Of a stretch of DNA of 52,148 nt, positions 7,361 to 37,455 are shown in pieces. Position numbers and translations under genes: made by a program. The stretch lies in IMG/VR virus record IMGVR_UViG_3300020171_000007, positions 1-52,148 of that record; one strand, given 5' to 3'. Below the pieces are notes generated by a model. That model did no database searches and had not been told where the DNA came from. It saw only the letters and a program-made list of their open reading frames with translations. Source of the DNA: a virus. Every line of letters starts with the position of its first letter. The stretch's first letter is position 1.

Positions 7361-7584
7361 TAAATACTATACAGTTTAGTGTTAACAGCTTTTGTTAAAT
7401 TATCTAACTTTTCATTTATGTTATCTATCTTCTCTATCAACAAAGCCTGGCATGAAGACCTGATTTGAATACAGTTTTCCTTATTCATCTTACCATTATC
7501 TCCTATAGCTTTGCCAGCTATACCGGCTACTAACGCTACTACAACTCCACCAAGGACAGTTTCTATCACAGTGTAGCCCTCCAA
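7360..7584 (-). CDS. Small membrane protein, holin-like
   Basis: A 74-residue protein with one membrane segment (VLGGVVVALVAGIAGKAIG, residues about 10-28) followed by a short Cys-x6-Cys stretch and an amphipathic helix (LIEKIDNINEKLDNLTKAV). One-membrane small proteins in late operons are often holins or spanin-like lysis proteins, but the only recognisable endolysin is 8.5 kb away. It could equally be a virion membrane-contact protein. Its start overlaps the terminase stop by 19 nt. Confidence 0.5.
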   Translation of the reverse strand: MEGYTVIETVLGGVVVALVAGIAGKAIGDNGKMNKENCIQIRSSCQALLIEKIDNINEKLDNLTKAVNTKLYSI

Positions 7585-9110
7585 TCCTCTATTGGCTTAT
7601 CATAGTTTAGTTCTTTATATTCAGCTTCCATGTCTTCAGGATTTTCCTTAGGACTGAAGTATCTTTCTCCAAGCTCAAGCATTTCAATGAGATAGGCCTC
7701 AGCATCCATTAGATCCCAAAGGGCAGATCGAGGAAACATTAGAAGCTGTTGTTCGAGCTTCCTAATTCCAGCACAAGAGGCATTGTGGTAGATGTAGCCT
7801 CCTCGGTAGTAAGGAACTAGTTCTTTAACACGAAGCTCTTTCTTCATCCCTCCGCGAGCCTTAAGCCAGATCAATTCAAAGAACGATCCACGCCTAAACA
7901 TCTCATTCTTGATCGGCTGCCTGATAAATTCATTAAGGGATGTTTCCTCAATCCCTAGTACTTTTGCACCTAGCATCTGAGCCATTCCGAACATAGCGTC
8001 GTAGATCTCATCAGGGTACATTTTCTCAGATATTACATCTCTGATGAAGATCTTGGCACTGTTAAGATCTATGCCGATTCCCATTATTGCAGTCTCAGCC
8101 GAGTGAATCTTGACCGTTTTAGCAGGATCCATAATGACTACTGTTTCAATGTTCTGGTCTTGTTGAACCTCAACATCGAGCATTTTAAGATCATTCTCAT
8201 TCCCATGCCTATCAGGAGGTAAGTTATAGTAATGGAAGTATTCAGTTCTGAATGCAGAGTCTTTTGTTGAGATAGGGAGATTCCTAAGCTCACGGAAAAA
8301 GACATCTGTTTGTCCAGCCTCAACATGCTGTTCCCATTCCTTCATGATGTCTGCATCTGACATAAAGTCTGGTGCAGTAGATTTAAAGTTATCATCACAA
8401 GCTTCGAGACGTACAGACTTCCATTCGTTAGAATCTAGTAATTTCTGAAGCACAGCATCTTCGTGCTTTAGTGTGTCGATGTAGACTATTTTCCAGTCTC
8501 TAGCCATAGGACCTATACGTGGGATAGCTTTTATTACATCTGCATAGAGCCACTCATACCAGCCCTTTCTGATTTCATCATTAGTTATTTTATCTGGGTC
8601 TTCAAGATCATCTATGATTATTAAGCCAGGTCGGTCGTTCTTGAATAGAACTCCACGCACCTGCTGTCCAGCACCTCTAGGCCAGACCAGAGTATCAAAT
8701 GCTACCCAGGCTTTTTTACTAAAGACTTCATCAAATTCAGCGTTGACTACGCTGTGAGATTTGAAAGAGCCGAAGAAGGATCTTATCTCCTTATTGGTTA
8801 CTAGTTCACGCCGAAGATTCTCGGTTTGTAGAGATGCAGCATCATGACTTTTGTTTATGTAGACAATGAATCCAGTATGACGGAACAAGATCCATCTAGC
8901 CATTAATGCCAAGGCAACGATGGAGGTCTTTCCCCAACCACGAGGAGCAGCTATGGCTACTTTCTGATCAGGCCCATCAATTAGATCAAATATCTTCCCA
9001 TGCACTTGCTCAGCAAAAGGCAAGGTAAAGCGCTCAGGAAAGAATGTAGAAGCGGTCATTCTTGTTGAGACGCTACATTTAGCTAATATATTTTGAATGT
9101 CCTGATCCAT
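7566..9110 (-). CDS. terL: Terminase large subunit
   Basis: A 514-residue DNA-packaging motor. Walker A is APRGWGKTS (residues 55-63) and Walker B is LIIIDDLED (163-171), in the N-terminal ATPase domain. The C-terminal RNase H-like nuclease has VVIMDPAKT (D328), GIEETSL (about 387-393) and a later DLMDAEAY acid. Length is normal for the family. It pumps DNA into the prohead through the portal, encoded about 1.4 kb downstream. ATG 9110 overlaps the stop of a 33-codon upstream gene (TAATG), so translation is coupled. Confidence 0.95.
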   Translation of the reverse strand: MDQDIQNILAKCSVSTRMTASTFFPERFTLPFAEQVHGKIFDLIDGPDQKVAIAAPRGWGKTSIVALALMARWILFRHTGFIVYINKSHDAASLQTENLRRELVTNKEIRSFFGSFKSHSVVNAEFDEVFSKKAWVAFDTLVWPRGAGQQVRGVLFKNDRPGLIIIDDLEDPDKITNDEIRKGWYEWLYADVIKAIPRIGPMARDWKIVYIDTLKHEDAVLQKLLDSNEWKSVRLEACDDNFKSTAPDFMSDADIMKEWEQHVEAGQTDVFFRELRNLPISTKDSAFRTEYFHYYNLPPDRHGNENDLKMLDVEVQQDQNIETVVIMDPAKTVKIHSAETAIMGIGIDLNSAKIFIRDVISEKMYPDEIYDAMFGMAQMLGAKVLGIEETSLNEFIRQPIKNEMFRRGSFFELIWLKARGGMKKELRVKELVPYYRGGYIYHNASCAGIRKLEQQLLMFPRSALWDLMDAEAYLIEMLELGERYFSPKENPEDMEAEYKELNYDKPIEDWRATL

Positions 9111-9744: not shown

Positions 9745-12528
9745 TTATCTAATAAATGCTCTGACGGTTATTGTTATTGCTGACCATGTAAGGTTTGATG
9801 CGTTGTATTCAATTTTCCTTGTGCTATCTATCTTCACCCACATATCCGCATAGTTGACGACGTTTGCAACCTGAGTGGCGATGGTAGAAATATTAATCGC
9901 ATTACTATTCCCATTTAGGCGAAAACTTAATGTAGATGCTGCTGCATCGTCTTGTATGGATACGCGAAGCAATACATATCTCGAAGCTCCAAAACCTGTC
10001 AATGGGGTGGACAAATCCAAGTCTCGCCACGTTCCGTCTGTGGTCAGGTCGGTAAGTATGAAACTTGCCGCAGCAAGATCACCAAGGTCATGGAGCGTTC
10101 CATACTGTGTCAACAGAATATGTTCGTCTATATCGAAAATAAAATCTCCGTCTTCTACTGCACGGGTAATGGAAGTAGCAGACATGCTGTAATGATTGTC
10201 CCGTGATGTTCCGGCTACCTGAACTATGCTATCAGCAATAGTTGATTCATCACCTTTTGTTATGTGAGATACGTTGAGATCGCCCCCGAAATAAATGCCT
10301 TTAGAACTCACACCACCAGCTAAAACTTCCTCCACGTTCTCATAGAAGAACCGAAACATGGTTATATTTGCGTGAGCATAGACCACATAGGTTGGCGTTG
10401 GGACTGATGTGACTGCAACATATATCTGGGAATCCCTGATGCTTAACCCTACTATTGAAGAAACTCCATCACCAATATAGAATCCATAACGAGGGGCATA
10501 GATGGCTGGTTCTCCCGTGATATCTTCAAAACTCAAATTAAGAGAAGCACTGGTTGTGGTATCTATCCACACAAAGGCTAGGCCGCCTTGCATCAACGGA
10601 CCACTTCCACAATACCACCACCCTCCTGTGACATGAAAGTCCAATGCACCCTCAATGTATATCCCGATAGCCCCCGTACCGCCAAGGGCTATCATATCCG
10701 TGCCGTATAGATTTGTTACAGTATTTGACTGTGCGCCAGTTGCGATGGTCTGGAATGAAGATGCCGCAACAAGAGAGTTATTCTTTGAGGTCGCAAACAC
10801 CTTCCCTGCTGGATAAGCGTTTACAAACTGGCACCCATAGTAACTATTGACTTCAGAACCATAAGAATAAATCGATGCTACCGTAAACTCCGACGTATAA
10901 TCATTCATCACGTTAAAGAACTTATGTCCTCCGCCACCCCCTCCACCACTATTTCGAGCAAGAAGGAACCCGTATGTAGGTGAAGTTGTTGGATCACCGT
11001 GAAGTGTGAAATCCCTGAATACTTGATTGTTAGAGCCGGTTAGATCAAAAGCGACTCCTGTATGTGCTGCCGTGATCTTACTTCCACCAAAAGACGTACC
11101 AGAACCATAACCTTCAAATACTATCTGGTAACTGAGATTTGTGGCGTTGATAGGCGTTGTTGCGGTCCCAGTCCCGATCCGCACCTTACCCCCGGTATTT
11201 GCAATAGATGCTATGGCGTTGGTCATTTGAAGACCGTAATCAGTACCTGGCCACCATTCCGGATAAATCTCCTTCACATACCCGCTGATTGTAACTATCC
11301 CAGTACCTGATAGCCAATTATACCTACCTACGTCGGGGTTAGGAATGCTCATCGTAAACGCCCCGTGGCTAATTAAAGCCCCAGGTACTATCTTAAACGT
11401 CACATTGGTATAGGCTGACCAATCGACGTTAGAGGAGATTACCCAGGTGCCGGGACGAAGGAGAAGAGTAGTCTTATTTACTACTCCTATTGCGGTGAGA
11501 GCAGATTGGATAGTGGCTTGAGTAAAGGAAGTGCCATTTCCATAGTCATATAAGGCATCTACTTCATAAGGAATAAAACCAGGAGATGAAGCACTTAGTA
11601 TCAATGCTGTTAATGTAGTTGCAGGGGTATAGGTAAGACCACCCGTAATTGCAACACTTCCAGTACCAGCAAAAGGATTGAAATAGTAAGGTCCTATATC
11701 TACTTGTTTGACGCTAGTTAAAGTAAGTGTCTGTGCACCAGCTATTGTTAGGTCTCCACCTCGATTTATTTTTATCTGGATGTTGGAAGGGATAGATAGA
11801 CTGAAGGCAACTGGAGATGAGACATTGACTTCGAGGACTACTTTGGCTGTGTCAATACAAGTTACGGCATAAGTGATAGAGGTGAACCAGGCTAGGTTAA
11901 GAGTAGGTCCATCTCGGAAGTGGAAGTGACCGGCTCCAGCCATTATTTGATAGTTGCCAGCCTCAATCTGGCCGATGTTAGAGACGTTAATGAGAGTGTT
12001 GACTGTGAGGATGTTTCCTGGAGACTCCCACTTTAGGGTTACGTTATTTCCAGGAGAGTAACTTGCAGTAATAGTTTGAGGCTTGGAGACTATCAAAGTT
12101 ACTGTATCATTAGTGGTTACAGCAAAAGCTGACTCAATGTTATTGAACCAACCAGTTTTGAGAATAGTGCCTGAGGCAAAGTCTATATTTCCAGGGCCAG
12201 TGAAGATTCGGCGGTTTTCAGCTATGATATTCTTAGTGTTGATAGTGAGCTGGCCAGTGTTAGTAATCATGCCATCTCGTTCAAATTTGAGAGTAACATT
12301 AGCTGGCACTGTTAGAGTTGAGACTGTCTGAGTGCCAACAATTACTACAGTTCGTTGGTTAGCACCGACTGCAGTAATGGCATCGTTGAGAGTGGCATAA
12401 GCACGAGAGTCAGTCCAGATGCCAGAGGCACTAGTGACTATGATGTCAGAGAAGAATTCAGCTCTTGCACCTGTAGAGATAGTCAAGAGGAGAATTATCG
12501 AGAGAAGGAATGCTTTTATGTTTTTCAT
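9745..12528 (-). CDS. Tail spike-like beta-helix protein with signal peptide
   Basis: About 927 residues. ATG 12528 is preferred over the one ten codons upstream because GGAG lies 7 nt before it. The N-terminus KNIKAFLLSIILLLTISTG-ARA is a classic cleavable signal peptide. The body is a succession of short beta repeats (for example LKFERDGMITNTGQL, LKWESPGNILTV, IKINRGGDLTIAG), which suggests a right-handed beta helix as in receptor-degrading tail spikes. A glycine run and a beta C-terminal domain follow. No catalytic residues can be assigned by eye. Signal peptides are not expected on virion spikes assembled in the cytoplasm, so the protein might instead be exported by the infected host. Confidence 0.7.
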   Translation of the reverse strand: MKNIKAFLLSIILLLTISTGARAEFFSDIIVTSASGIWTDSRAYATLNDAITAVGANQRTVVIVGTQTVSTLTVPANVTLKFERDGMITNTGQLTINTKNIIAENRRIFTGPGNIDFASGTILKTGWFNNIESAFAVTTNDTVTLIVSKPQTITASYSPGNNVTLKWESPGNILTVNTLINVSNIGQIEAGNYQIMAGAGHFHFRDGPTLNLAWFTSITYAVTCIDTAKVVLEVNVSSPVAFSLSIPSNIQIKINRGGDLTIAGAQTLTLTSVKQVDIGPYYFNPFAGTGSVAITGGLTYTPATTLTALILSASSPGFIPYEVDALYDYGNGTSFTQATIQSALTAIGVVNKTTLLLRPGTWVISSNVDWSAYTNVTFKIVPGALISHGAFTMSIPNPDVGRYNWLSGTGIVTISGYVKEIYPEWWPGTDYGLQMTNAIASIANTGGKVRIGTGTATTPINATNLSYQIVFEGYGSGTSFGGSKITAAHTGVAFDLTGSNNQVFRDFTLHGDPTTSPTYGFLLARNSGGGGGGGHKFFNVMNDYTSEFTVASIYSYGSEVNSYYGCQFVNAYPAGKVFATSKNNSLVAASSFQTIATGAQSNTVTNLYGTDMIALGGTGAIGIYIEGALDFHVTGGWWYCGSGPLMQGGLAFVWIDTTTSASLNLSFEDITGEPAIYAPRYGFYIGDGVSSIVGLSIRDSQIYVAVTSVPTPTYVVYAHANITMFRFFYENVEEVLAGGVSSKGIYFGGDLNVSHITKGDESTIADSIVQVAGTSRDNHYSMSATSITRAVEDGDFIFDIDEHILLTQYGTLHDLGDLAAASFILTDLTTDGTWRDLDLSTPLTGFGASRYVLLRVSIQDDAAASTLSFRLNGNSNAINISTIATQVANVVNYADMWVKIDSTRKIEYNASNLTWSAITITVRAFIR

Positions 12529-12543
12529 CTTAGGTCTCCATTT

Positions 12544-12568
12544 AGTTCGTTTAATCATTGAACGGACT
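12544..12568. repeat. 25-bp palindromic repeat, copy 4
   Basis: Arms AGTTCG and CGGACT with TTTAATCATTGAA core. It supplies the last codons and the TGA stop of the radical SAM/glycosyltransferase gene. Confidence 0.9.
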
Positions 12569-14651
12569 GAGCCGCAGCCATCTTATCACGCCAACTAATG
12601 CCGCGTCGTCTAGCTTCACCAATAGGCATCTTTACTTGATAATTCATCCTTGGTAAATTCCACTTCTTATCCATATAGAGGCGATTCTTCTTGAGTAAGG
12701 CATCTACATCGAACCCCTCCTTAGCATGGATTAGAGTGAAGGTGGAACGACCTCTATGGTATATGCAAGTGTCGATTGCAAACTCTGTCTTGTATCCAGC
12801 TGCTCGAGTGGCTAAGTTGTAGTCGTTGTCATCCCACATTCCCATCTCGTAATTTGGATCGAGGAGTCCGACTATGTCTATTACTTCTCGCTTAATCACA
12901 CCACAGAGGAAGGCAACGAAAGGAGTGGCACAGGTACGACCACTGTAATGGGTTTCAAGATAGCGATTGATCTCTTCCATTGACATATTGAGTTGATTAG
13001 GGACTATAGTGTCATGCAATGAAAGACTATGATGAGAGTCCATCATTCCGTGGCCACGAGGGTCAGGCATAGTTAGTGAGCCTATGATCCCCATCCTTGG
13101 GTCACGCTTGAGGGCGTTGACTAGTTTGCCAAGCCAACCTTGGGATACTATAGTGTCATTGTTTAGGAGGCAGACAAAAGGTGCAGTAGATGCCTCTATA
13201 CCACGATTCACAGCCTCAACAAAACCTTCATTCTTTTCCAGCTTGATTGTTAGATGAGGCATATCTTGGATTACTTCTTCTACCTTCGACGTATCTTTGG
13301 AGGCATTATCTACCCAGATTAAACGGTAAGGTATGTGAGTGCACTCTCGAATGCTATTGAAGCAGGCTAGTGTTAGTTCAGTGTTTTCGTAGGTAGGCAC
13401 TATTATATCACAAGCTGCATTTTCCACTATATTTCCCTCTCCTCGTAATCCACGAAGGACGGCATCTAAATAGCCATAGTCAACATTCTTTACTTTACGT
13501 CCTGAAGGGCAGCGATTGTAGCTATTTCGGTCAAGCAGAGACAGTCCTTCTTCAATGCACTGCTCACCGAGTTCACATCCTGGGTATGGAGTGAAGAAGG
13601 CCCAGGAAGGCATCTCTGCATTAATGGTGTCAGCCATTCTTGCTGTAGCCTGGATGTCGGATTTAGTCTCCCAAGGTAGGCCGAGCATGTAGTTGGCGTA
13701 GATCTTAGCTCCTGTACTCCTGACTATCTTCGCCGACTCAAGATTTTGCTCTACAGTGGTTCCCTTCTTCATGAGATCAAGGATTCGCTGTGAGCCAGAT
13801 TCAAATCCTACGGAGACAAGTTCCCAGCCGACCTTAACTAATCGTTTTACTAAGTCTGGATGATCACAGACTCCATCGGCTCTGCATGAAGCCCAGAAGG
13901 GAAGGTCAATTTCAGGGTAGCGTTCAATGAATTCCTCAAGCCATTTAGGCTGGATTAGGAAAGTATCGTCGTGGATCATGATGCAGTCTGGATGGTAAGT
14001 ATCTTTGAGCATCTGAAGCTCAGCGATCATGCTATCTACAGAGCGCCGACGTAGTTTTCTGCCAAAGTGGTTGTGTTCGATAGGTTGACAGAAGGCACAT
14101 TCATAGGGACAGCCACGAGCTGCCATTACAGATATCATTCGCTCTCTTCCAGGACCATACCACCAACCTTTTACTGGTTCGACAGGGTCACGATAGATAG
14201 AACGATCCATGAAAGGGAGGAGATCGAGCTCTTGTGGCTTCTCTCCGAAGATTTCTCGGTCGAAACTCGAGGGATTAGCTAGGAATTTAGGGAAAGTGAT
14301 CTCACTTTCGCCGTGGAAGACGTAGTCTATGGAAGGATTTTCGAGGATTTGATCTGAAGCAGCCGTTACGTGGTAGCCGGCGACTAAAGTCTTTGCTCCG
14401 AGTTCTTTTGCGATCTTAATTACTTGCATACCGATAGAGTAGTAGGAGCTTTTGAGACCAAAAGATATTAAATCATATCCTTGGAGGACTAATTTTAATT
14501 CTCTATCATTGGACAGAGTCTTCATATCAAGAAAGTCTACATCACAACCAGCTTTTTGGGCGGCTGTGTAGGTCATGCCAGCGCCGTGGTCATGCCAGGC
14601 GTCTAGACCTTGTCCTTGATAGGGATAGAGAGCTATGATTAAGGTTTTCAT
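12555..14651 (-). CDS. B12-binding-like radical SAM / family 2 glycosyltransferase fusion
   Basis: A 698-residue fusion. Residues 1-130 look like the Rossmann cobalamin-binding domain of B12 radical SAM enzymes (LIIALYPYQGQG; GYDLISFGLKSSYYS). Residues 175-370 are a radical SAM barrel with C181-x3-C185-x2-C188 in MAARGCPYECAFCQP, the ligands of a 4Fe-4S cluster. Residues 412-640 are a GT-A glycosyltransferase family 2 domain (DIIVPTYEN, LIWVDNASKD, LLNNDT, MWDDND). The ATG at 14651 overlaps the stop of the methyltransferase-NTPase gene (ATGA). Substrates are unknown; a glycan or lipid-linked sugar on the host surface or virion is plausible. Both halves keep their key residues. Such a fusion is very unusual in a phage. 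Confidence 0.85.
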   Translation of the reverse strand: MKTLIIALYPYQGQGLDAWHDHGAGMTYTAAQKAGCDVDFLDMKTLSNDRELKLVLQGYDLISFGLKSSYYSIGMQVIKIAKELGAKTLVAGYHVTAASDQILENPSIDYVFHGESEITFPKFLANPSSFDREIFGEKPQELDLLPFMDRSIYRDPVEPVKGWWYGPGRERMISVMAARGCPYECAFCQPIEHNHFGRKLRRRSVDSMIAELQMLKDTYHPDCIMIHDDTFLIQPKWLEEFIERYPEIDLPFWASCRADGVCDHPDLVKRLVKVGWELVSVGFESGSQRILDLMKKGTTVEQNLESAKIVRSTGAKIYANYMLGLPWETKSDIQATARMADTINAEMPSWAFFTPYPGCELGEQCIEEGLSLLDRNSYNRCPSGRKVKNVDYGYLDAVLRGLRGEGNIVENAACDIIVPTYENTELTLACFNSIRECTHIPYRLIWVDNASKDTSKVEEVIQDMPHLTIKLEKNEGFVEAVNRGIEASTAPFVCLLNNDTIVSQGWLGKLVNALKRDPRMGIIGSLTMPDPRGHGMMDSHHSLSLHDTIVPNQLNMSMEEINRYLETHYSGRTCATPFVAFLCGVIKREVIDIVGLLDPNYEMGMWDDNDYNLATRAAGYKTEFAIDTCIYHRGRSTFTLIHAKEGFDVDALLKKNRLYMDKKWNLPRMNYQVKMPIGEARRRGISWRDKMAAAQSVQ

Positions 14652-15595
14652 TGAGCATCCTTGTTAATTTCTATTATATTAGTCCAACCGAGATCTCTTA
14701 ATAATTGAGCTGCACGAATTTTGAAGTCGAAGAAGCTTAATTCATAGCCTTCTATTATTATGTCCCTATTGATGCATCTACTTAACCATTGATCTAAAGT
14801 ATTGATGAAGAAGTCAAGGTATTCCTGAATAAGATGTCCTCTGACAAGATCAGAATAATAAGCAGCAGAAAATAACTTATTTGCATCTCTAGTACAATCA
14901 TTTCTCCAGGTAGCAGAAAGATTGTCAGTCATCAAGTGCTTATGATTAAAGTAGGTCTGAGCCAAGGTTGTCTTCCCTGTTCCACCTTCCCCTGAGATTA
15001 AGATAGCTTCAGGGATTGAAGGAGTTGGACCTGACAGGTGGAAGACGTGCCGGTTGGAGTTATCAGGGCTTATTGTAGGGCCTAGATCTTGGACACAAGA
15101 AAAGTGCTTACGAGTTATTCCGGCGAAGGCTGGAACTGATGGGATGTAGATGTTTCGATAGGTGGAAGTGAAGATATTATCTACTGACTCATTAATCCAG
15201 AGGTCACAGATGACTTGTTTGGCGCACCGAGCAAATAGTTCAAAGAGAGTATCTAGATCTTTGATATAGTGGAGCATTCCAGAAGCTATGATTATGTCAT
15301 AGTTTCCATGGACTTCTTCAGCTTGTTCACAGCGGAAGATTAGTTCTGGGAAGATTTTTCTTGCTTGTTCTATTGTTGATATATCAGTGTCAATACCAGT
15401 TACTTGACGAGCTCCAGCCTGCAAAGCAAGATAGCCTAGCATCCCTGTGTTGCAGCCAATGTCAAGGACTGTTTTATCAGTGAAGTCAATGTTTGGAGTG
15501 AGTTGCTCAAACTTAGTTTGAGTATCTATCATACCTTCTTGTATGACTACTCCATCTTTGACTATCTTTTGATAGTTAGTAGATCCCATATTCAT
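14648..15595 (-). CDS. SAM methyltransferase / P-loop NTPase (kinase-like) fusion
   Basis: A 315-residue protein. Residues 30-190 form a class I methyltransferase with motif I VLDIGCNTGMLG (43-54), an acidic residue at the end of beta 2 (GIDTD) and IIIASGMLHYI. Residues 195-315 are a P-loop domain with Walker A ISGEGGTGKTT (200-210) and a kinase-like helical tail (IIIEGYELSFFD). The domain pair suggests methylation and phosphoryl transfer on the same substrate. It is translationally coupled to the radical SAM/glycosyltransferase, so both probably act in one modification pathway. Alternative start at the second Met. Confidence 0.82.
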   Translation of the reverse strand: MNMGSTNYQKIVKDGVVIQEGMIDTQTKFEQLTPNIDFTDKTVLDIGCNTGMLGYLALQAGARQVTGIDTDISTIEQARKIFPELIFRCEQAEEVHGNYDIIIASGMLHYIKDLDTLFELFARCAKQVICDLWINESVDNIFTSTYRNIYIPSVPAFAGITRKHFSCVQDLGPTISPDNSNRHVFHLSGPTPSIPEAILISGEGGTGKTTLAQTYFNHKHLMTDNLSATWRNDCTRDANKLFSAAYYSDLVRGHLIQEYLDFFINTLDQWLSRCINRDIIIEGYELSFFDFKIRAAQLLRDLGWTNIIEINKDAQ

Positions 15596-15605
15596 TAGAG
15601 TTCCA

Positions 15606-15630
15606 AGTCTGTTTAATGATTAAACGATCT
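15606..15630. repeat. 25-bp palindromic repeat, copy 5
   Basis: Arms AGTCTG and CGATCT. On the minus strand it encodes the final Ile-Val codons and TAA stop of the DUF1353 gene. Confidence 0.92.
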
Positions 15631-16009
15631 GATCCATTACACTTTTTTTATGATAAGCAGTCCAGCCACCCAAAACTACTCCCCAGTACATAGAATAACG
15701 AACAAAGAAACTCTTACCTCTTACCTTCATTGCTTCGAAGAAGACGTTGTCAGCTTTAGAGCGGCTGACTTGAGGGACTGAATCTGTTCGATAAAGATAA
15801 TCATGAATCACCGCTTCACGATGAGCCCTGTCACCAAAGAGTGAGTAGGCAATAGGGACACGAGGGACAGAGGCGAAGTCAGTCTCAAATCCAGTAGGAA
15901 CTTCAACCTTTCCAACAATGTCACTGATATAGACTAATGGTGAGTTAAGGCACCAGACAGTGTCATTGTTGATGAGTTTGCATTCTAACTCTGTACAAAA
16001 TTCAGCCAT
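15620..16009 (-). CDS. DUF1353 family protein
   Basis: About 129 residues starting at ATG 16009, which overlaps the endolysin stop as TAATG. The DUF1353 signature is present: VEVPTGFETDFASVPR followed by AHREAVIHDYLY. The biochemical role of this family is not established. It is common beside lysis or tail genes of phages. A longer frame reaching 16075 is open but would overlap the endolysin by 66 nt. Confidence 0.85.
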   Translation of the reverse strand: MAEFCTELECKLINNDTVWCLNSPLVYISDIVGKVEVPTGFETDFASVPRVPIAYSLFGDRAHREAVIHDYLYRTDSVPQVSRSKADNVFFEAMKVRGKSFFVRYSMYWGVVLGGWTAYHKKSVMDQIV

Positions 16010-16329
16010 TAAGAGTTCCCATCCCATAGTATGCTGAAGTGGTTTCCGTCTGGCTTTTTGAAATCTCCTCCCCATCTATTGATCGGGTCTAGAGCTTTCC
16101 ACGCTTGACCTAAGCGGCTGTAGGATTCTGAATCCCTAAGATATTTATCTTTTTCAAACAAGTTAAAGTCCTGAGCCAGCCTAATAAAATGATTGGAGTT
16201 TTTCATATGCCCTACTCCATCATCATCGAAGGATTCTCCAAAGGTGATTTCATAACCTTGTTCATAAGCCCAGAGGACCAACTTGGCTATGTTTAGACAA
16301 AAAGCTTGCTGAGCATCTAAGAGGCGCAC
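16009..16329 (-). CDS. M15-family peptidase endolysin
   Basis: A 106-residue zinc peptidase of the M15 type (VanY / L-alanyl-D-glutamate endopeptidase-like). Probable zinc ligands are H47 and D54 in NHFIRLAQDFNLF and H97 in WGGDFKKPDGNHFSI, with the Asp in GGD nearby. It would cut the peptidoglycan stem peptide to release progeny. It is compact, with no separate cell-wall-binding domain and no signal peptide, so it needs a holin. Its ATG overlaps the end of the small terminase gene by 13 nt. Confidence 0.88.
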   Translation of the reverse strand: MRLLDAQQAFCLNIAKLVLWAYEQGYEITFGESFDDDGVGHMKNSNHFIRLAQDFNLFEKDKYLRDSESYSRLGQAWKALDPINRWGGDFKKPDGNHFSILWDGNS

Positions 16330-16988
16330 TGGATCATAACCTCCATTTCTTTGTTGGGGCTGTCTTGACTGGAATTAATGGGAATGGAATTGGAAAGGAC
16401 AGTATTCGGATGCTGCGCCTCCGGCTGAGGAGTTACATCTATTATAAGGCCAGATTCTTGAGCCGCCTTGAGCCCTCTGGATTTGAAGGCTTCGATCTCA
16501 GCCACTGTGAGTGAAATGTTAGTTGATTGAATTTTAGTCGGTGCTCGGAGGCCAGAGAGCTCAAGTAAAACAGTATCGGCTACATCTTTGCGATCCCTGA
16601 CAGTGGCGGCTCCATCTTCATTGTCAAAGATCTCATGGTAAGTTTGAAGGGCTTTGTTGGTTAGGATTCGGATTTTTTCTGAGATTTTTTTTGCATCCTC
16701 ATCTCTAACATTCCTAATCTCAGCCAGTTTCTTCTGGCCAAGTTCTGAGTTTAGAGTGAGAGAGACAGTAGCTTCGCTGATATTGAGGATGTCGGCTATA
16801 TCAGTTTGTTTGTAGCCGCGAGCAGCTAGATTAATGATCTCATGTGAGCGCTGCCAAAGGGCTTTGATTTCATACCTTTTGCGCGGCTGATCTTCTGGCG
16901 TTCGGCGGAGATCTTCATCTCTAAAGTCGAATCCATAAAGACCATTTCTTGTCTGGACACCTTCCATGAAATTCACCATTCCATACAT
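16317..16988 (-). CDS. terS: Putative terminase small subunit
   Basis: A 223-residue protein with a helix-turn-helix at about 54-78 (AARGYKQTDIADILNISEAT), then a coiled helical oligomerisation-like segment (KKISEKIRILTNKALQTYHE), then a disordered Gln/Ser/Pro-rich tail. This is the usual architecture of TerS, which recognises phage DNA and feeds it to TerL. TerL lies 7 kb downstream on the same strand, an unusually long separation filled by lysis, modification and spike genes. First gene of the late transcript. Methionines at 1, 4 and 8 are all possible starts; none has a strong ribosome binding site. Confidence 0.7.
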   Translation of the reverse strand: MYGMVNFMEGVQTRNGLYGFDFRDEDLRRTPEDQPRKRYEIKALWQRSHEIINLAARGYKQTDIADILNISEATVSLTLNSELGQKKLAEIRNVRDEDAKKISEKIRILTNKALQTYHEIFDNEDGAATVRDRKDVADTVLLELSGLRAPTKIQSTNISLTVAEIEAFKSRGLKAAQESGLIIDVTPQPEAQHPNTVLSNSIPINSSQDSPNKEMEVMIQCAS

Positions 16989-17006: not shown

Positions 17007-17036
17007 ATTATAACACACCTACATAGGAGATGTCAA
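17007..17036 (-). promoter_or_regulatory. Late-arm sigma70 promoter
   Basis: On the minus strand, TTGACA (17036-17031), 18-nt spacer ending AGGTGTGT, TATAAT (17012-17007). An AAATGTAC box (17055-17048) lies exactly 11 nt upstream of the -35. Transcription would start near 17000, just before the small terminase gene. Confidence 0.85.
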
Positions 17037-19551: not shown

Positions 19552-19580
19552 TTGACAAATGACTGAAGGTGTGTTATAAT
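19552..19580 (+). promoter_or_regulatory. Consensus sigma70 promoter
   Basis: TTGACA (19552-19557), 17-nt spacer, TATAAT (19575-19580). The 14 bases AGGTGTGTTATAAT are identical to those of the late promoter. No AAATGTAC box. It drives the cluster of small genes from 19642. Confidence 0.9.
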
Positions 19581-33344: not shown

Positions 33345-33552
33345 CTTAGATGATCTCGGCTATCCATCAATCATAGATATGGAAACTGATGAGGCTATTG
33401 ACTTGCTCCGTCAGATCCGTCTATCTCGAAGGACGCCTGACAAGAAACCTTCAACTCGAACTACAACGAAGAAAACTTTAGCAAAGGTAACTACTGCGGT
33501 CGACGCTAACATGGCTGCTGAACTCTTAAGACTTCTCGGAGGAATACAATGA
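33337..33552 (+). CDS. Hypothetical small protein
   Basis: 71 residues: acidic N-terminus, basic Thr/Lys-rich middle (STRTTTKKTLAKVTTA), and a helical end (AAELLRLLGGIQ). Overlaps the ParB-methyltransferase start (ATGA). Possibly a partner of that protein. Confidence 0.55.
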   Translation: MADLDDLGYPSIIDMETDEAIDLLRQIRLSRRTPDKKPSTRTTTKKTLAKVTTAVDANMAAELLRLLGGIQ

Positions 33553-34895
33553 ACAGTATCCAAGTTGGCCGTGTCGGTATGGTATCTCCAACCCAAGTAA
33601 CCGTAACAGAAAATCGTGCCCGAGAGATCATGGGAGATCTAGATGAACTCGAAGCTAGCCTAAAAGAAAGTGGCCTCATCGCTCCATTAGCAGTGAAGGA
33701 TAATAAAGATGGAACCTTCACACTCCTCGCTGGTGAGCGGCGCTTTACAATTCTTCAGCGAAATCAGGTACCAGAGATTCCAGTTCGTATCTATGACCAA
33801 GATCTCTCTGATATAGAGATGAAGGTGATTGAAAAATCTGAGAATTTTTTCCGCAAAGATATGGAGTTTTGGGAGCTGGATAAACTCACCTTGGAAATCC
33901 ACAGGATGCAACAGGCTTTGCATGGAGCTAGTTCACCTGGCCCAGGGGACTCCGGCTGGTCTGTTGAAGACACCGGAGACATGATAGGTGGTGTGTCCAA
34001 AGCTACTGTCTCCCAGGCCATTAAACGGGCTGAGCTTCGTGAAGCTATTCCTGAAATCTTTGATGATTGTAAGACTGCAGCCGATGCACTCAAGTTGATT
34101 AAGAAACTCGATACGGCTGTACTCCAGCAAGCTCTTGCAAAGCAGATTGAGGAAAGGACTGAGACCGGCTCTTCGTTAATGCAGCTCTCAAAATCCTATA
34201 TTCTAGAGAATTGTTTTGTAGGGATTAAGAAAATCCCTGCTGGCGTGTTCCATCTTGTGGAAATAGATCCTCCTTACTCCATCAAGATCATGGAGCAGAA
34301 GAGAGCTGAAGGAGAGTCTCAGTATATAAAAGCTGATTACAATGAAGTTCCTGCCACCATCTACATGGATGGAGACGGACGTGATTGGCTTGGGATGAAG
34401 TATCTTTTCAAGGAGTGTTATAGGGTTATGACAGAGCACTCTTGGTTACTCTGCTGGTTTGGTCCGGAGCCTTGGTTTGAGGAGATGTATAATGCTATTA
34501 AGGGAGCAGGATTTGAAACAACAAGGATGTGTCCTATTTGGGTTAAGCCTTCTGGCCAAACCAAACAGCCGGAAACTAAACTCCCAAATTCATATGAGAT
34601 GTTCTTCTATGCCTGGAAGGGTCGTCCGGCTATTGCAAGACAAAGAGGTGGCAATACCTTTGTTTATTCACCTGTTCCACCGCAGCAGAAGTCTCATCCA
34701 ACTGAGCGCCCTCTCGATATGATGAAGGATATTTATGAGACCTTTGTCTTTCAAGGTTCTAGAGTTCTCATTCCTTTTCTTGGCTCCGGCTCTGGATTGA
34801 TTGCGGCTCATCAGTTAGGAATGACTGGCGTAGGATTTGAGCTGACCAAAGCATATAAGGATTCATTCTTGGTTAGAGCTCATTCGTTGAAATAG
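33549..34895 (+). CDS. ParB-like / DNA methyltransferase fusion
   Basis: 448 residues. Residues 10-160 are a ParB/Sulfiredoxin-like domain (LKESGLIAPLAVK, LLAGERRFTIL with GERR 62-65) plus a helix-turn-helix (GGVSKATVSQAIKRAE). Residues 215-448 are a beta-type DNA methyltransferase: catalytic DPPY 240-243, HPTERP 383-388, and SAM-binding PFLGSGSGLIAA near 409-420. Motif IV precedes motif I, so N4-cytosine or N6-adenine methylation is expected. Such fusions may protect phage DNA or mark it for the phage's own nucleases. The TAG stop begins palindromic repeat copy 14. Confidence 0.87.
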   Translation: MNSIQVGRVGMVSPTQVTVTENRAREIMGDLDELEASLKESGLIAPLAVKDNKDGTFTLLAGERRFTILQRNQVPEIPVRIYDQDLSDIEMKVIEKSENFFRKDMEFWELDKLTLEIHRMQQALHGASSPGPGDSGWSVEDTGDMIGGVSKATVSQAIKRAELREAIPEIFDDCKTAADALKLIKKLDTAVLQQALAKQIEERTETGSSLMQLSKSYILENCFVGIKKIPAGVFHLVEIDPPYSIKIMEQKRAEGESQYIKADYNEVPATIYMDGDGRDWLGMKYLFKECYRVMTEHSWLLCWFGPEPWFEEMYNAIKGAGFETTRMCPIWVKPSGQTKQPETKLPNSYEMFFYAWKGRPAIARQRGGNTFVYSPVPPQQKSHPTERPLDMMKDIYETFVFQGSRVLIPFLGSGSGLIAAHQLGMTGVGFELTKAYKDSFLVRAHSLK

Positions 34896-34918
34896 TCTGT
34901 TTAATCATTAAACGATCT
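34894..34918. repeat. 25-bp palindromic repeat, copy 14
   Basis: Arms AGTCTG and CGATCT. Starts at the AG of the methyltransferase TAG stop; the polymerase ribosome binding site follows. Confidence 0.93.
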
Positions 34919-34935
34919 TGAATAAAGGAGCTTCA

Positions 34936-37455
34936 ATGCGACGAACTTTTGTCCCGCCCTCAGGTGACCCTTCAGCCAAACTTGCCGGCTGTGGGGAACA
35001 ACCAGGGTATCAAGAAGTACGCGCTAGACCACCTAAACCTTTCGTGGGTCCTGCTGGTCAGGGCTTAGACGAATGCTTGCTCATGACCAAGATTCCTAGA
35101 CGTGAGATTTATCTCACTAATGTAATCAAAGATCTTGATGCCCCACTCAAGCATTACATAGACCTAAACACCCGAGGAAGTTGGACTGTTTCGGCTGAAG
35201 GTCTTGAGTATATAAATGAACTGGGACGGGAGCTTCGGGCGCTCAGCCTCAATGTTATCGTAGCTTTCGGTAACATAGCCCTCCTCGCTCTCTGCAATAG
35301 GGTAGGGATTACTAAATGGAGAGGGTCTGTCTTAGAGTCCACTCTCGTCCCAGGTTTGAAGGTAATTCCTACCTTTCATCCTGCTACCTTCATTCCGCCA
35401 AAGTTTAATTTCCTAAACAAACCTATTATCTGCGAAGACCTTATGAGGGCTAAACATGAGTCTCAATCCAAAGACGTTAATAGAATTGCAAGATCTATCC
35501 ACACTCGCTGTGATTTTAATCAGACGATCAACACTCTCCGTCATTGCTACAGGGTCGGAAGACTTGGCCAGATCATTGGTATTGATATTGAAGTTATTAA
35601 CAGAGAAGTTGACTGTATAGGAGTTAGTTGGTCTCCAACCGAATCCATCTGCATTCCTCTCAGACATTCTGGAGGAGATTTCTTCACGCCAGAAGAAGAG
35701 CTCTCCATCATGCGAGGAATTGCCTATATCATCCAAGACGAAAACATAGCTAAGGTCGGCGCTTCTTTCATCTTCGATACTCAATTCTTATTCCACAAGT
35801 ATGGAATCGTCCCTCGTGGTGAACTCCACTGTACACAGATAGCACAGAAGATTGCTTATCCAGATTTTCCAGCCGGTCTCGATGCTGTCACCACTATGCA
35901 CACAGACATTCCTTACTACAAAGCCGATGGTAAGCAGTGGATGAAGATGGGGTATGGAACTTGGGATCAGTGGTGGAACTATAATGGTCTGGATGCTTTG
36001 GTTCCGGTAGATACTCTATCTAAGCAATTTGAAGTTCTCAAGCATCAGGGTAATGCTAAGACCTACGATAGGCAGCATAAGCTAATCAAGCCTCTCATCT
36101 ATATGTCTGAGCGTGGGATCTCTATTGATGTAGAAGGCATGATGATTTATGAAGGAGAACAGCACAAGATCCTTGATGAATTAGATCTTCAACTCAAAGC
36201 TGAAGTTGGCCGAGACATCAACTACAATTCACCCAAGCAACTGATGGAGTATTTTTACAAGGATCTTGGCATCAAACCTTATAAGAAGAAGAATGCTCAG
36301 GGAGCTTATAATGAATCAATAGATGTTGATGCTCTAAAACGCATTGTTAGACAGGGCACTAAGGCTTCAACCGCTGCTCGTATCATGTTAGATATTCGTA
36401 GCCTTAGTAAACGTATCTCTACTTATTTGAACATAGGAAAGGTGGATAAAGATGGACGCTATCGCTCAAGTTATAAGCCAGTTGGTGCTGAGACTGGCCG
36501 TCTTAGTTCTGGGGAGACAATCTTTGGTACTGGAGGTAATCAACAGAACTGGCCCCACGACTTACTCCGTTTCTTCCTCTTCGATGAAGGTTACATTGGA
36601 TACTCATTCGACCTTAGTCAAATTGAGAATAGAATTGTGGCCTATGTTGGAGGAGTCCTCACACAGATAGAAGCATTTGAAAAGGGTATTGACCTTCATA
36701 CCCTTACAGCCTCAATTATCTTCAACAAACCCTATGATCAGATCTCCAAAGTAGATGGATCATCATCTCTCGGTGACGGTCGTCAGAGTGAACGCTATTG
36801 GGGGAAAAAGCTAAATCATGGAACTAATTATGATGAAAGCTATAAAAAAGTCGCCTTAGTAAATGAATTACCTGAGTCTGAGGCCAAACAACTAATGGAG
36901 GAGATTCATCAAGGCTATCCTCAAATCCGGAGTGGTTATCATGCTACTATTCAAAATATGCTTAAGGAAAATAGAACCATTACGAACCTATTCGGTCGCA
37001 CTAGACTATTCCTTGGTCCAGTGTTTCCTTCTTATCCTAACGTCCCACAGCATGCTTGTACTGAGACGTACAGACAAGCCTATGCCCAACTCCCTCAATC
37101 TACTTGTGCTGATAAGATAAATGAGCAAGGGCTGGAATATATCTATTACAATCAGCACTTGTTTAGACCATTAGAATTGTTAGCACAGATTCATGATTCT
37201 ATTGTATTTCAGATTCCTCTAACTATCCCATGGGAAGAGCATGCTAGGATGCTTCTGTTGATTAAAGCATCACTTGAAACTCCTTTATTCTGGCATGAGA
37301 GAGAGATCAAAACTCCGGTTGATCTGGCTATGGGAAAAACTATGTGCAAAGAAGAAATGACTGAGATGAAAAGTAAAGATATCCCAAGCAGTGAGTCCGA
37401 GCTAGCTCTAAAGCTGGAATCGATCTATACAAAACTCCTCTCGAAGAAAAGCTAA
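34936..37455 (+). CDS. UDG-like / 3'-5' exonuclease / family A DNA polymerase
   Basis: 839 residues from ATG 34936 (AAAGGAG upstream). Residues 10-160: uracil-DNA glycosylase superfamily fold (GEQPGYQE, PFVGPAGQGLDECL, YLTNVIKD, PTFHPA), without the Fe-S cysteine set. Residues 210-360: exonuclease with D217/E219, D281 and Y349..D353. Residues 380-839: polymerase A with motif A SFDLSQIENR (D559), motif B R620..K624..Y632 and motif C QIHDSIV (H753-D754). Two oddities: the position aligned to E. coli F762 reads His628, and the motif C Glu is Ser755. It is the replicative polymerase. Confidence 0.92.
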   Translation: MRRTFVPPSGDPSAKLAGCGEQPGYQEVRARPPKPFVGPAGQGLDECLLMTKIPRREIYLTNVIKDLDAPLKHYIDLNTRGSWTVSAEGLEYINELGRELRALSLNVIVAFGNIALLALCNRVGITKWRGSVLESTLVPGLKVIPTFHPATFIPPKFNFLNKPIICEDLMRAKHESQSKDVNRIARSIHTRCDFNQTINTLRHCYRVGRLGQIIGIDIEVINREVDCIGVSWSPTESICIPLRHSGGDFFTPEEELSIMRGIAYIIQDENIAKVGASFIFDTQFLFHKYGIVPRGELHCTQIAQKIAYPDFPAGLDAVTTMHTDIPYYKADGKQWMKMGYGTWDQWWNYNGLDALVPVDTLSKQFEVLKHQGNAKTYDRQHKLIKPLIYMSERGISIDVEGMMIYEGEQHKILDELDLQLKAEVGRDINYNSPKQLMEYFYKDLGIKPYKKKNAQGAYNESIDVDALKRIVRQGTKASTAARIMLDIRSLSKRISTYLNIGKVDKDGRYRSSYKPVGAETGRLSSGETIFGTGGNQQNWPHDLLRFFLFDEGYIGYSFDLSQIENRIVAYVGGVLTQIEAFEKGIDLHTLTASIIFNKPYDQISKVDGSSSLGDGRQSERYWGKKLNHGTNYDESYKKVALVNELPESEAKQLMEEIHQGYPQIRSGYHATIQNMLKENRTITNLFGRTRLFLGPVFPSYPNVPQHACTETYRQAYAQLPQSTCADKINEQGLEYIYYNQHLFRPLELLAQIHDSIVFQIPLTIPWEEHARMLLLIKASLETPLFWHEREIKTPVDLAMGKTMCKEEMTEMKSKDIPSSESELALKLESIYTKLLSKKS

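Follow-up and report, generated by a model that had tools for sequence, protein, structure and literature searches.

A radical SAM-glycosyltransferase fusion in a putative exchangeable glycan island of uncultured phages

The DNA studied here, called the window below, is the whole 52,148-bp virus record IMGVR_UViG_3300020171_000007, which comes from an uncultured phage. Its minus strand carries a cassette of two genes, joined by an ATGA overlap. One encodes a methyltransferase with a P-loop domain (MT-P-loop), the other a fusion of a B12-type radical SAM (rSAM) enzyme with a family 2 glycosyltransferase (GT2). The initial annotation had proposed two overlapping genes at 12555-15595, and open reading frames (ORFs) are found at exactly these coordinates. 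The features are collected in Table 1.

Table 1 Features of the cassette and its surroundings, in coordinates of the window.
Feature	Position	Strand	Evidence or remark
Sigma-70-type promoter TTGACA-18-TATAAT, TG-extended, 12/12	17007..17036	-	Directly upstream of terS
Terminase small subunit-like (HTH) gene, first of the operon (terS)	16317..16988	-	Pfam/PHROGs; kept at island head in relatives
M15 peptidase endolysin	16009..16329	-	PF13539, 31.1 bits vs cut-off 25
DUF1353 protein	15620..16075	-	PF07087, 8e-24
MT-P-loop fusion, 315 aa	14648..15595	-	ORF at these coordinates; Pfam; model
Domains of MT-P-loop: class I SAM methyltransferase, aa ~20-190; P-loop kinase-like, aa ~195-315	14648..15595	-	
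Walker A GEGGTGKTT, aa 202-210	14966..14992	-	G, GK and T invariant in five homologues
Walker B-like DIIIEGY region, about aa 278-283	14747..14764	-	
B12-type radical SAM-GT2 fusion, 698 aa	12555..14651	-	ORF at these coordinates; Pfam; NCBIfam; model
N-terminal cobalamin-binding-like Rossmann domain, aa 1-130	14262..14651	-	PF02310 above cut-off; model
CPYECAFC = CX3CX2C [4Fe-4S] motif, aa 181-188	14088..14111	-	Cysteines invariant in ten homologues
GT-A fold GT2 domain, aa 411-668: VDN (D448), NND (497-499), DDND (607-610)	12648..13421	-	Pfam, motifs, structure
Beta-helix-like 'spike' gene, Sec-type leader	9745..12528	-	ORF open from 12558
Terminase large subunit (terL), downstream border of island	7566..9110	-	PHROG 38, 3e-55

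Read along the minus strand, the order is terS-like gene, M15 endolysin, DUF1353, MT-P-loop, rSAM-GT2, 'spike', a 170-aa ORF and terL. The cassette had been placed between the lysis genes and the spike in one operon. This stands, with the terS-like gene as an additional member upstream of the lysis genes. The true start of the 'spike' gene is probably 12528, beyond the stop of the cassette. No sequence relatives of this protein were found in the PDB or in phage records.

The promoter is a perfect match, of which composition alone would give about 0.013 in 13 kb. It occurs at the same site, some 47-57 nt upstream of terS, in five relatives (given here by our handles), perfectly in L016 and L035 and with 10-11 of the 12 positions in L002, L003 and L011. 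None was seen at this site in L007, L008 and L015. Rfam and tRNA scans of the window gave no match. The window also holds DNA-related genes: a deoxycytidylate-deaminase-family gene, a DNA methylase and UDG-polA.

Four enzymatic domains with intact motifs had been described for the two genes, and Pfam, conservation and confident models bear this out, for the P-loop by way of weak AAA-type matches and the Walker motifs. On the fusion, Pfam finds Glycos_transf_2 (PF00535, 71.5 bits, cut-off 23.3), Radical_SAM (PF04055, 65.6 bits, cut-off 29.5) and B12-binding (PF02310, 35.8 bits, cut-off 32.1). PHROGs gives weak glycosyltransferase and methyltransferase matches for the cassette. In an alignment of ten fusions, the other nine 59-73% identical to that of the window, C181/C185/C188, D448-N449, N497-N498-D499 and D607-D608 are all invariant. 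NCBIfam puts the rSAM half among B12-binding radical SAM enzymes (HpnJ, BchE, TIGR04013, AprD4-like), with scores far under every curated equivalog cut-off; the best is HpnJ (1e-35, 123.4 vs 577.6 bits).

The AlphaFold2 model of the fusion has a mean pLDDT of 84.5, from a 23-sequence alignment. Its first ~400 residues match AprD4 (Z 30.9), MgmA (29.6), OxsB (27.9), CysS (26.2) and TsrM (25.7), and AprD4, MgmA, OxsB and TsrM align with it across both the Rossmann and the rSAM domain. Over residues 410-675 the matches are GT-A enzymes at Z ~20-22, among them chondroitin polymerase, TarP and polypeptide GalNAc-transferases, the best being polypeptide GalNAc-T2 at 21.9. Such matches are evidence of fold and not of substrate. 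The rSAM fold is common to methylases and to the dehydratase AprD4, and AprD4, the top match, is not a methylase.

By its CX3CX2C motif and predicted Rossmann domain, the fusion is a member of the B12-binding (class B type) radical SAM superfamily. By profile, motifs and predicted GT-A fold, it is equally a family 2 glycosyltransferase.

In the partner gene, the methyltransferase half matches Methyltransf_25 (PF13649, 42.8 bits, cut-off 27), and motif I, D-x-G-C-N-x-G, is invariant in six homologues. The AlphaFold2 model (mean pLDDT 82.3, alignment of 6 sequences) resembles class I methyltransferases at Z ~17-18, including the sugar enzymes TylM1, DesVI and CalS10. With this predicted Rossmann fold and motif I, the half is a class I SAM methyltransferase.

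Methyltransferases occupy the entire structural match list of the MT-P-loop protein. For the P-loop domain, Pfam gives weak AAA-type matches around Walker A. In a profile search, the best match over most of the domain (profile positions 6-121) is PezT, E 0.002, among many AAA ATPases at similar E. PezT is a zeta-type UDP-GlcNAc kinase. A homologue with its domains in reverse order (L057) matches AAA_33 at 5.6e-5, under the cut-off of that family. Of this domain only the Walker A/B motifs are solid, and its likeness to PezT is weak and mixed with that to AAA ATPases.

Against their nearest relatives, both cassette genes have a dN of ~0.21, with dS saturated (1.8-3.3). Since dN is this low while dS is saturated, both genes appear to be under strong purifying selection, with dN/dS a rough indication because of the saturation. 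It is very improbable that the rSAM domain is catalytically dead or structural only, given that the cluster cysteines and most core residues are invariant in the ten fusions, that dN is so low, and that the gene is also conserved where it stands alone, at 68-75% identity.

Scans of viral contigs place the rSAM-GT2 pair in about 20 IMG/VR contigs. In 20 of the 21 relatives, the rSAM domain has a GT2 homologue beside it, near it or fused to it. The lone exception, L022, lacks its upstream flank, and its near-twin L021 has the GT2. There are three arrangements: rSAM-GT2 fused, in the lineage of the window; GT2-rSAM fused, in L010; and separate genes close together, in L017, L019, L020 and L021. 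In the L010 record (77.9 kb) and in the L017, L019, L020 and L021 fragments, searches with the terL and the major head protein of the window gave no homologue. The fused, reversed and separate forms are good evidence that rSAM and GT2 are functional partners and that the pair has been transferred between unrelated phages. In a tree of the rSAM domain, the phage proteins are far from three bacterial ones and the unfused and reversed proteins group together (92/89), with many inner forks open.

A scan of genomes from 84,980 species of bacteria and archaea gave a single match, on a phage-like contig (L024) in a groundwater MAG. The bin belongs to a small-genome phylum. No fusion was found in 192 genomes of that phylum, and rSAM or GT2 alone reaches ~34% identity or less among the matches listed. 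Within the databases scanned, we could find the rSAM-GT2 fusion only in phages.

The MT-P-loop gene behaves differently. It is present in just three of the 21 rSAM relatives, of which two (L021/L022) are near-identical. Identity to the window protein is 74% in L012 (on the same contig as L002), 45% in L021/L022 and 36% in L056. On the L056 fragment the gene occurs with other glycosyltransferase and methyltransferase genes, and no rSAM was detected there. In L057 the reversed fusion adjoins glycosyltransferase and terminase genes. As judged from this distribution, the gene is optional in the island. Two further phages (L056, L057) pair MT-P-loop with other glycosyltransferases. The idea of one fixed four-domain unit is thus not supported, and a fixed four-domain pathway was dropped. 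An unfused distribution with unrelated neighbours was looked for in the relatives: rSAM and GT2 stay linked even unfused, whereas MT-P-loop is partly dispersed.

What lies between terS and terL varies from phage to phage. In L005, L011, L013, L015 and L016 this site holds GT2 and sulfotransferase-like proteins, and in these, and also in L014, a rhamnosyltransferase-like domain (Rhamno_transf) is fused to the C-terminus of the core protein. The sulfotransferase-like P-loops at the site in L005 and L011, like the other assignments of this kind, are either under Pfam cut-offs or come from motif reading. L006 has a methyltransferase and a GT92 there, and L007 and L009 have methyltransferases and small glycosyltransferases. 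L035 and L041 carry an NAD epimerase (nucleotide-sugar epimerase) and other glycan genes, and the core is not seen there. In L037 the site is empty and reads terS-spike-terL. The glycan role in the initial annotation is supported by these epimerase, sulfotransferase-like, rhamnosyltransferase-like and other glycosyltransferase and methyltransferase genes at one site.

The 'spike' gene, present in the operon of the window, adjoins this site in many relatives, though not all. It was not found in the fusion-bearing 50-kb L009 record, in a search that had no positive control. Judging by this case, presence of the gene does not track presence of the cassette.

With somewhat better than even confidence, we read the two genes of the window as one version of an exchangeable phage glycan-decoration island between terS/lysis and spike/terL, which would make, in the cytosol, a methylated glycan with a radical modification and, in some cases, sulfate or phosphate groups. 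What is observed comprises the domains with their intact motifs, the layout of the operon and the link to sugar-modifying genes; from these we infer the steps. The swapping of decorating genes suggests diversifying pressure on a surface formed by glycans.

Transcription would start at the terS promoter, and soluble cytosolic enzymes would then assemble a short glycan, with GT2 as the domain that transfers a nucleotide-activated sugar. Before or just after this transfer, the fused rSAM domain may change the carbon skeleton of the sugar by radical chemistry. C-methylation or deoxygenation is proposed on the basis of a fold group that includes AprD4, an aminosugar deoxygenase, and cobalamin-dependent C-methylases. 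The MT-P-loop protein might add a methyl group, and a phosphate too if its P-loop is a kinase, analogous to the WbdD cap. Exchangeable neighbour genes could supply methyl, sulfo and possibly phospho groups. The phosphorylation of the sugar suggested earlier depends on the weak likeness of the P-loop to PezT and zeta-type kinases.

As acceptor, a phage virion protein is our first choice, at about even confidence. A host surface glycan ranks after it, as a tentative candidate. The virion is favoured because the enzymes are soluble, there is no flippase or membrane glycosyltransferase, and the genes sit with those for lysis and packaging.

It is possible, if rather doubtful, that the island instead alters the host surface (O-antigen or capsule) during infection, which would block superinfection by related phages or stop virions sticking to debris. 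Surface polysaccharide loci typically contain genes of the epimerase, rhamnosyltransferase-like and sulfotransferase-like kinds, and in many relatives the site is beside the spike-like beta-helix gene. For viruses of methanogenic and methanotrophic archaea, O-antigen genes have likewise been discussed as a means of surface alteration (PMC9723712). Yet the cassette has no flippase and no bactoprenol-linked membrane glycosyltransferase, and no clear membrane segments were seen in the 19 cassette proteins examined (max KD19 1.72). Lysis and packaging genes in the same operon would leave little time for surface replacement. Integrase was found in none of the ORFs scanned, hence there is no sign of lysogenic conversion, and this absence points to a lytic lifestyle.

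An unlikely alternative is that the two genes are unrelated cargo, with MT-P-loop in a separate role such as a small-molecule or RNA methyltransferase with an ATPase. Its rarity among the rSAM relatives, and its occurrence in L056 with no rSAM detected on the fragment, would fit. Against this, it always adjoins glycosyltransferase or glycan genes (window, L012, L021/L022, L056 and the reversed L057), and in the window the two genes overlap.

Nucleic acid had also been named as an acceptor. Phages do use glycosyltransferases on their DNA bases, and thymidine hypermodification also involves radical SAM enzymes and P-loop kinases. Hypermodification of phage DNA by the cassette is nonetheless hardly credible, as no dUMP/dCMP hydroxymethylase or other base-writing gene is present among the window ORFs scanned with Pfam, a set that leaves out many small ORFs, and the neighbours in relatives are polysaccharide-type genes.

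Glycosylation encoded by phages is a known phenomenon. Going by its genes, the cassette would be a form of it, within which the fused rSAM-GT2 and the gene swapping appear to be new. Mycobacteriophages Che8, Corndog and Myrna use glycosyltransferases on their own capsid and tail-tube proteins (PMC12363180). These glycosyltransferases are likewise phage-encoded, but no radical SAM, sulfotransferase-like or MT-kinase partner is named in the account consulted, and the phages and hosts are unrelated. The GtrABC serotype-conversion cassettes of temperate phages are phage-borne glycosylation genes too. They consist of the GtrA flippase and membrane glycosyltransferases, whereas the cassette of the window has no GtrA-like flippase or membrane glycosyltransferase and its phage is apparently not temperate. 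Conversion of the GtrABC type was dropped, as the cassette proteins examined show no clear membrane segment that would point to such components.

WbdD of E. coli O9a is a methyltransferase joined to a kinase, and caps the end of a glycan with phosphate and methyl (PMC3482155). Its kinase, which carries a coiled coil, has the fold of eukaryotic protein kinases, whereas the window protein has a P-loop domain (GEGGTGKTT) and no match to any protein kinase family. Membership of the WbdD type was therefore rejected, and the comparison is one of analogy.

AprD4 acts on aminosugars, and so do the class B cobalamin radical SAM enzymes GenK and GenD1 (PMC5461906). By model, AprD4 has its B12-type Rossmann and radical SAM fold in common with the window protein, which is 15-19% identical to the enzymes of this group that have solved structures. 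We know of no member of the group with a fused glycosyltransferase.

B12-type radical SAM enzymes and O-antigen or glycosyltransferase genes are mentioned, separately, for the archaeal viruses noted above (PMC9723712). In one library of open-licence papers, no paper was found that unites phage, radical SAM, cobalamin-binding and glycosyltransferase, in line with the original impression that this architecture had no described counterpart. Within this scope, neither the fused enzyme nor the swapped island appears to have been described.

The terL of the window is 46% identical to that of the Desulfofustis phage LS06-2018-MD01, and ~25% or less to the other named phages listed. CRISPR spacers link LS06-2018-MD01 to Desulfofustis (PMC10370329). 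This likeness makes an anaerobic host plausible. A bolder and quite speculative reading is that an exchangeable island, much like a serotype locus, lets phages of anoxic environments coat their virions with sugars that are radical-modified (C-methyl or deoxy), O-methylated, sulfated or phosphorylated. The enzyme used would be a single protein that both modifies and transfers, of a kind unknown in cells. If true, phages would own a system for diversifying glycans that compares with the O-antigen loci of bacteria, and the fused radical SAM glycosyltransferase could give new sugar chemistry. The gene set may serve to probe the role of glycans on the virions of environmental phages: masking of receptors, protection or avoidance of unproductive binding. 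The three natural arrangements, fused, reversed and separate, are also evidence of a B12-type radical SAM enzyme working directly with a glycosyltransferase.

A protein search of 50,697 phage records gave no full-length relative of either cassette protein. The closest radical SAM protein there is gp36 of Streptomyces phage SF3, at 25% identity, and its gene adjoins thymidylate kinase and Nudix genes.

The spike-like beta-helix protein (9745-12528) carries a Sec-signal-like leader at its N-terminus, as do all 12 of the homologues examined; one example from these proteins is MKNIKAFLLSIILLLTISTGARA. Such a leader is an unusual feature in a virion spike. The protein was not found in L006-L009 and L014, relatives that all bear the radical SAM-GT2 fusion.

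In L010, a phage record with a reversed GT2-rSAM cassette, a transposase-like gene (1897-2814), which on reading its sequence appears to be of the IS1595/ISXO2 type, lies between glycosyltransferase genes of that cassette. A B12-binding radical SAM gene also occurs in Streptomyces phage SF3 (7848-9347), but in a different setting, next to thymidylate kinase and Nudix genes.

The portal-like protein has a LAGLIDADG motif in a region (about aa 418-739) that relatives lack; this region is probably an intein.

Further features of the window
Feature	Coordinates
ORF resembling LAGLIDADG homing endonuclease	33-899
Portal-like protein, 1000 aa	3134-6136
N6/N4 DNA methylase fused to ParB-like domain	33549-34895
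DNA polymerase A with N-terminally fused uracil-DNA glycosylase domain	34918-37455

The window's second perfect TTGACA-(16-18)-TATAAT site is at 19552 on the plus strand, amid rightward genes.
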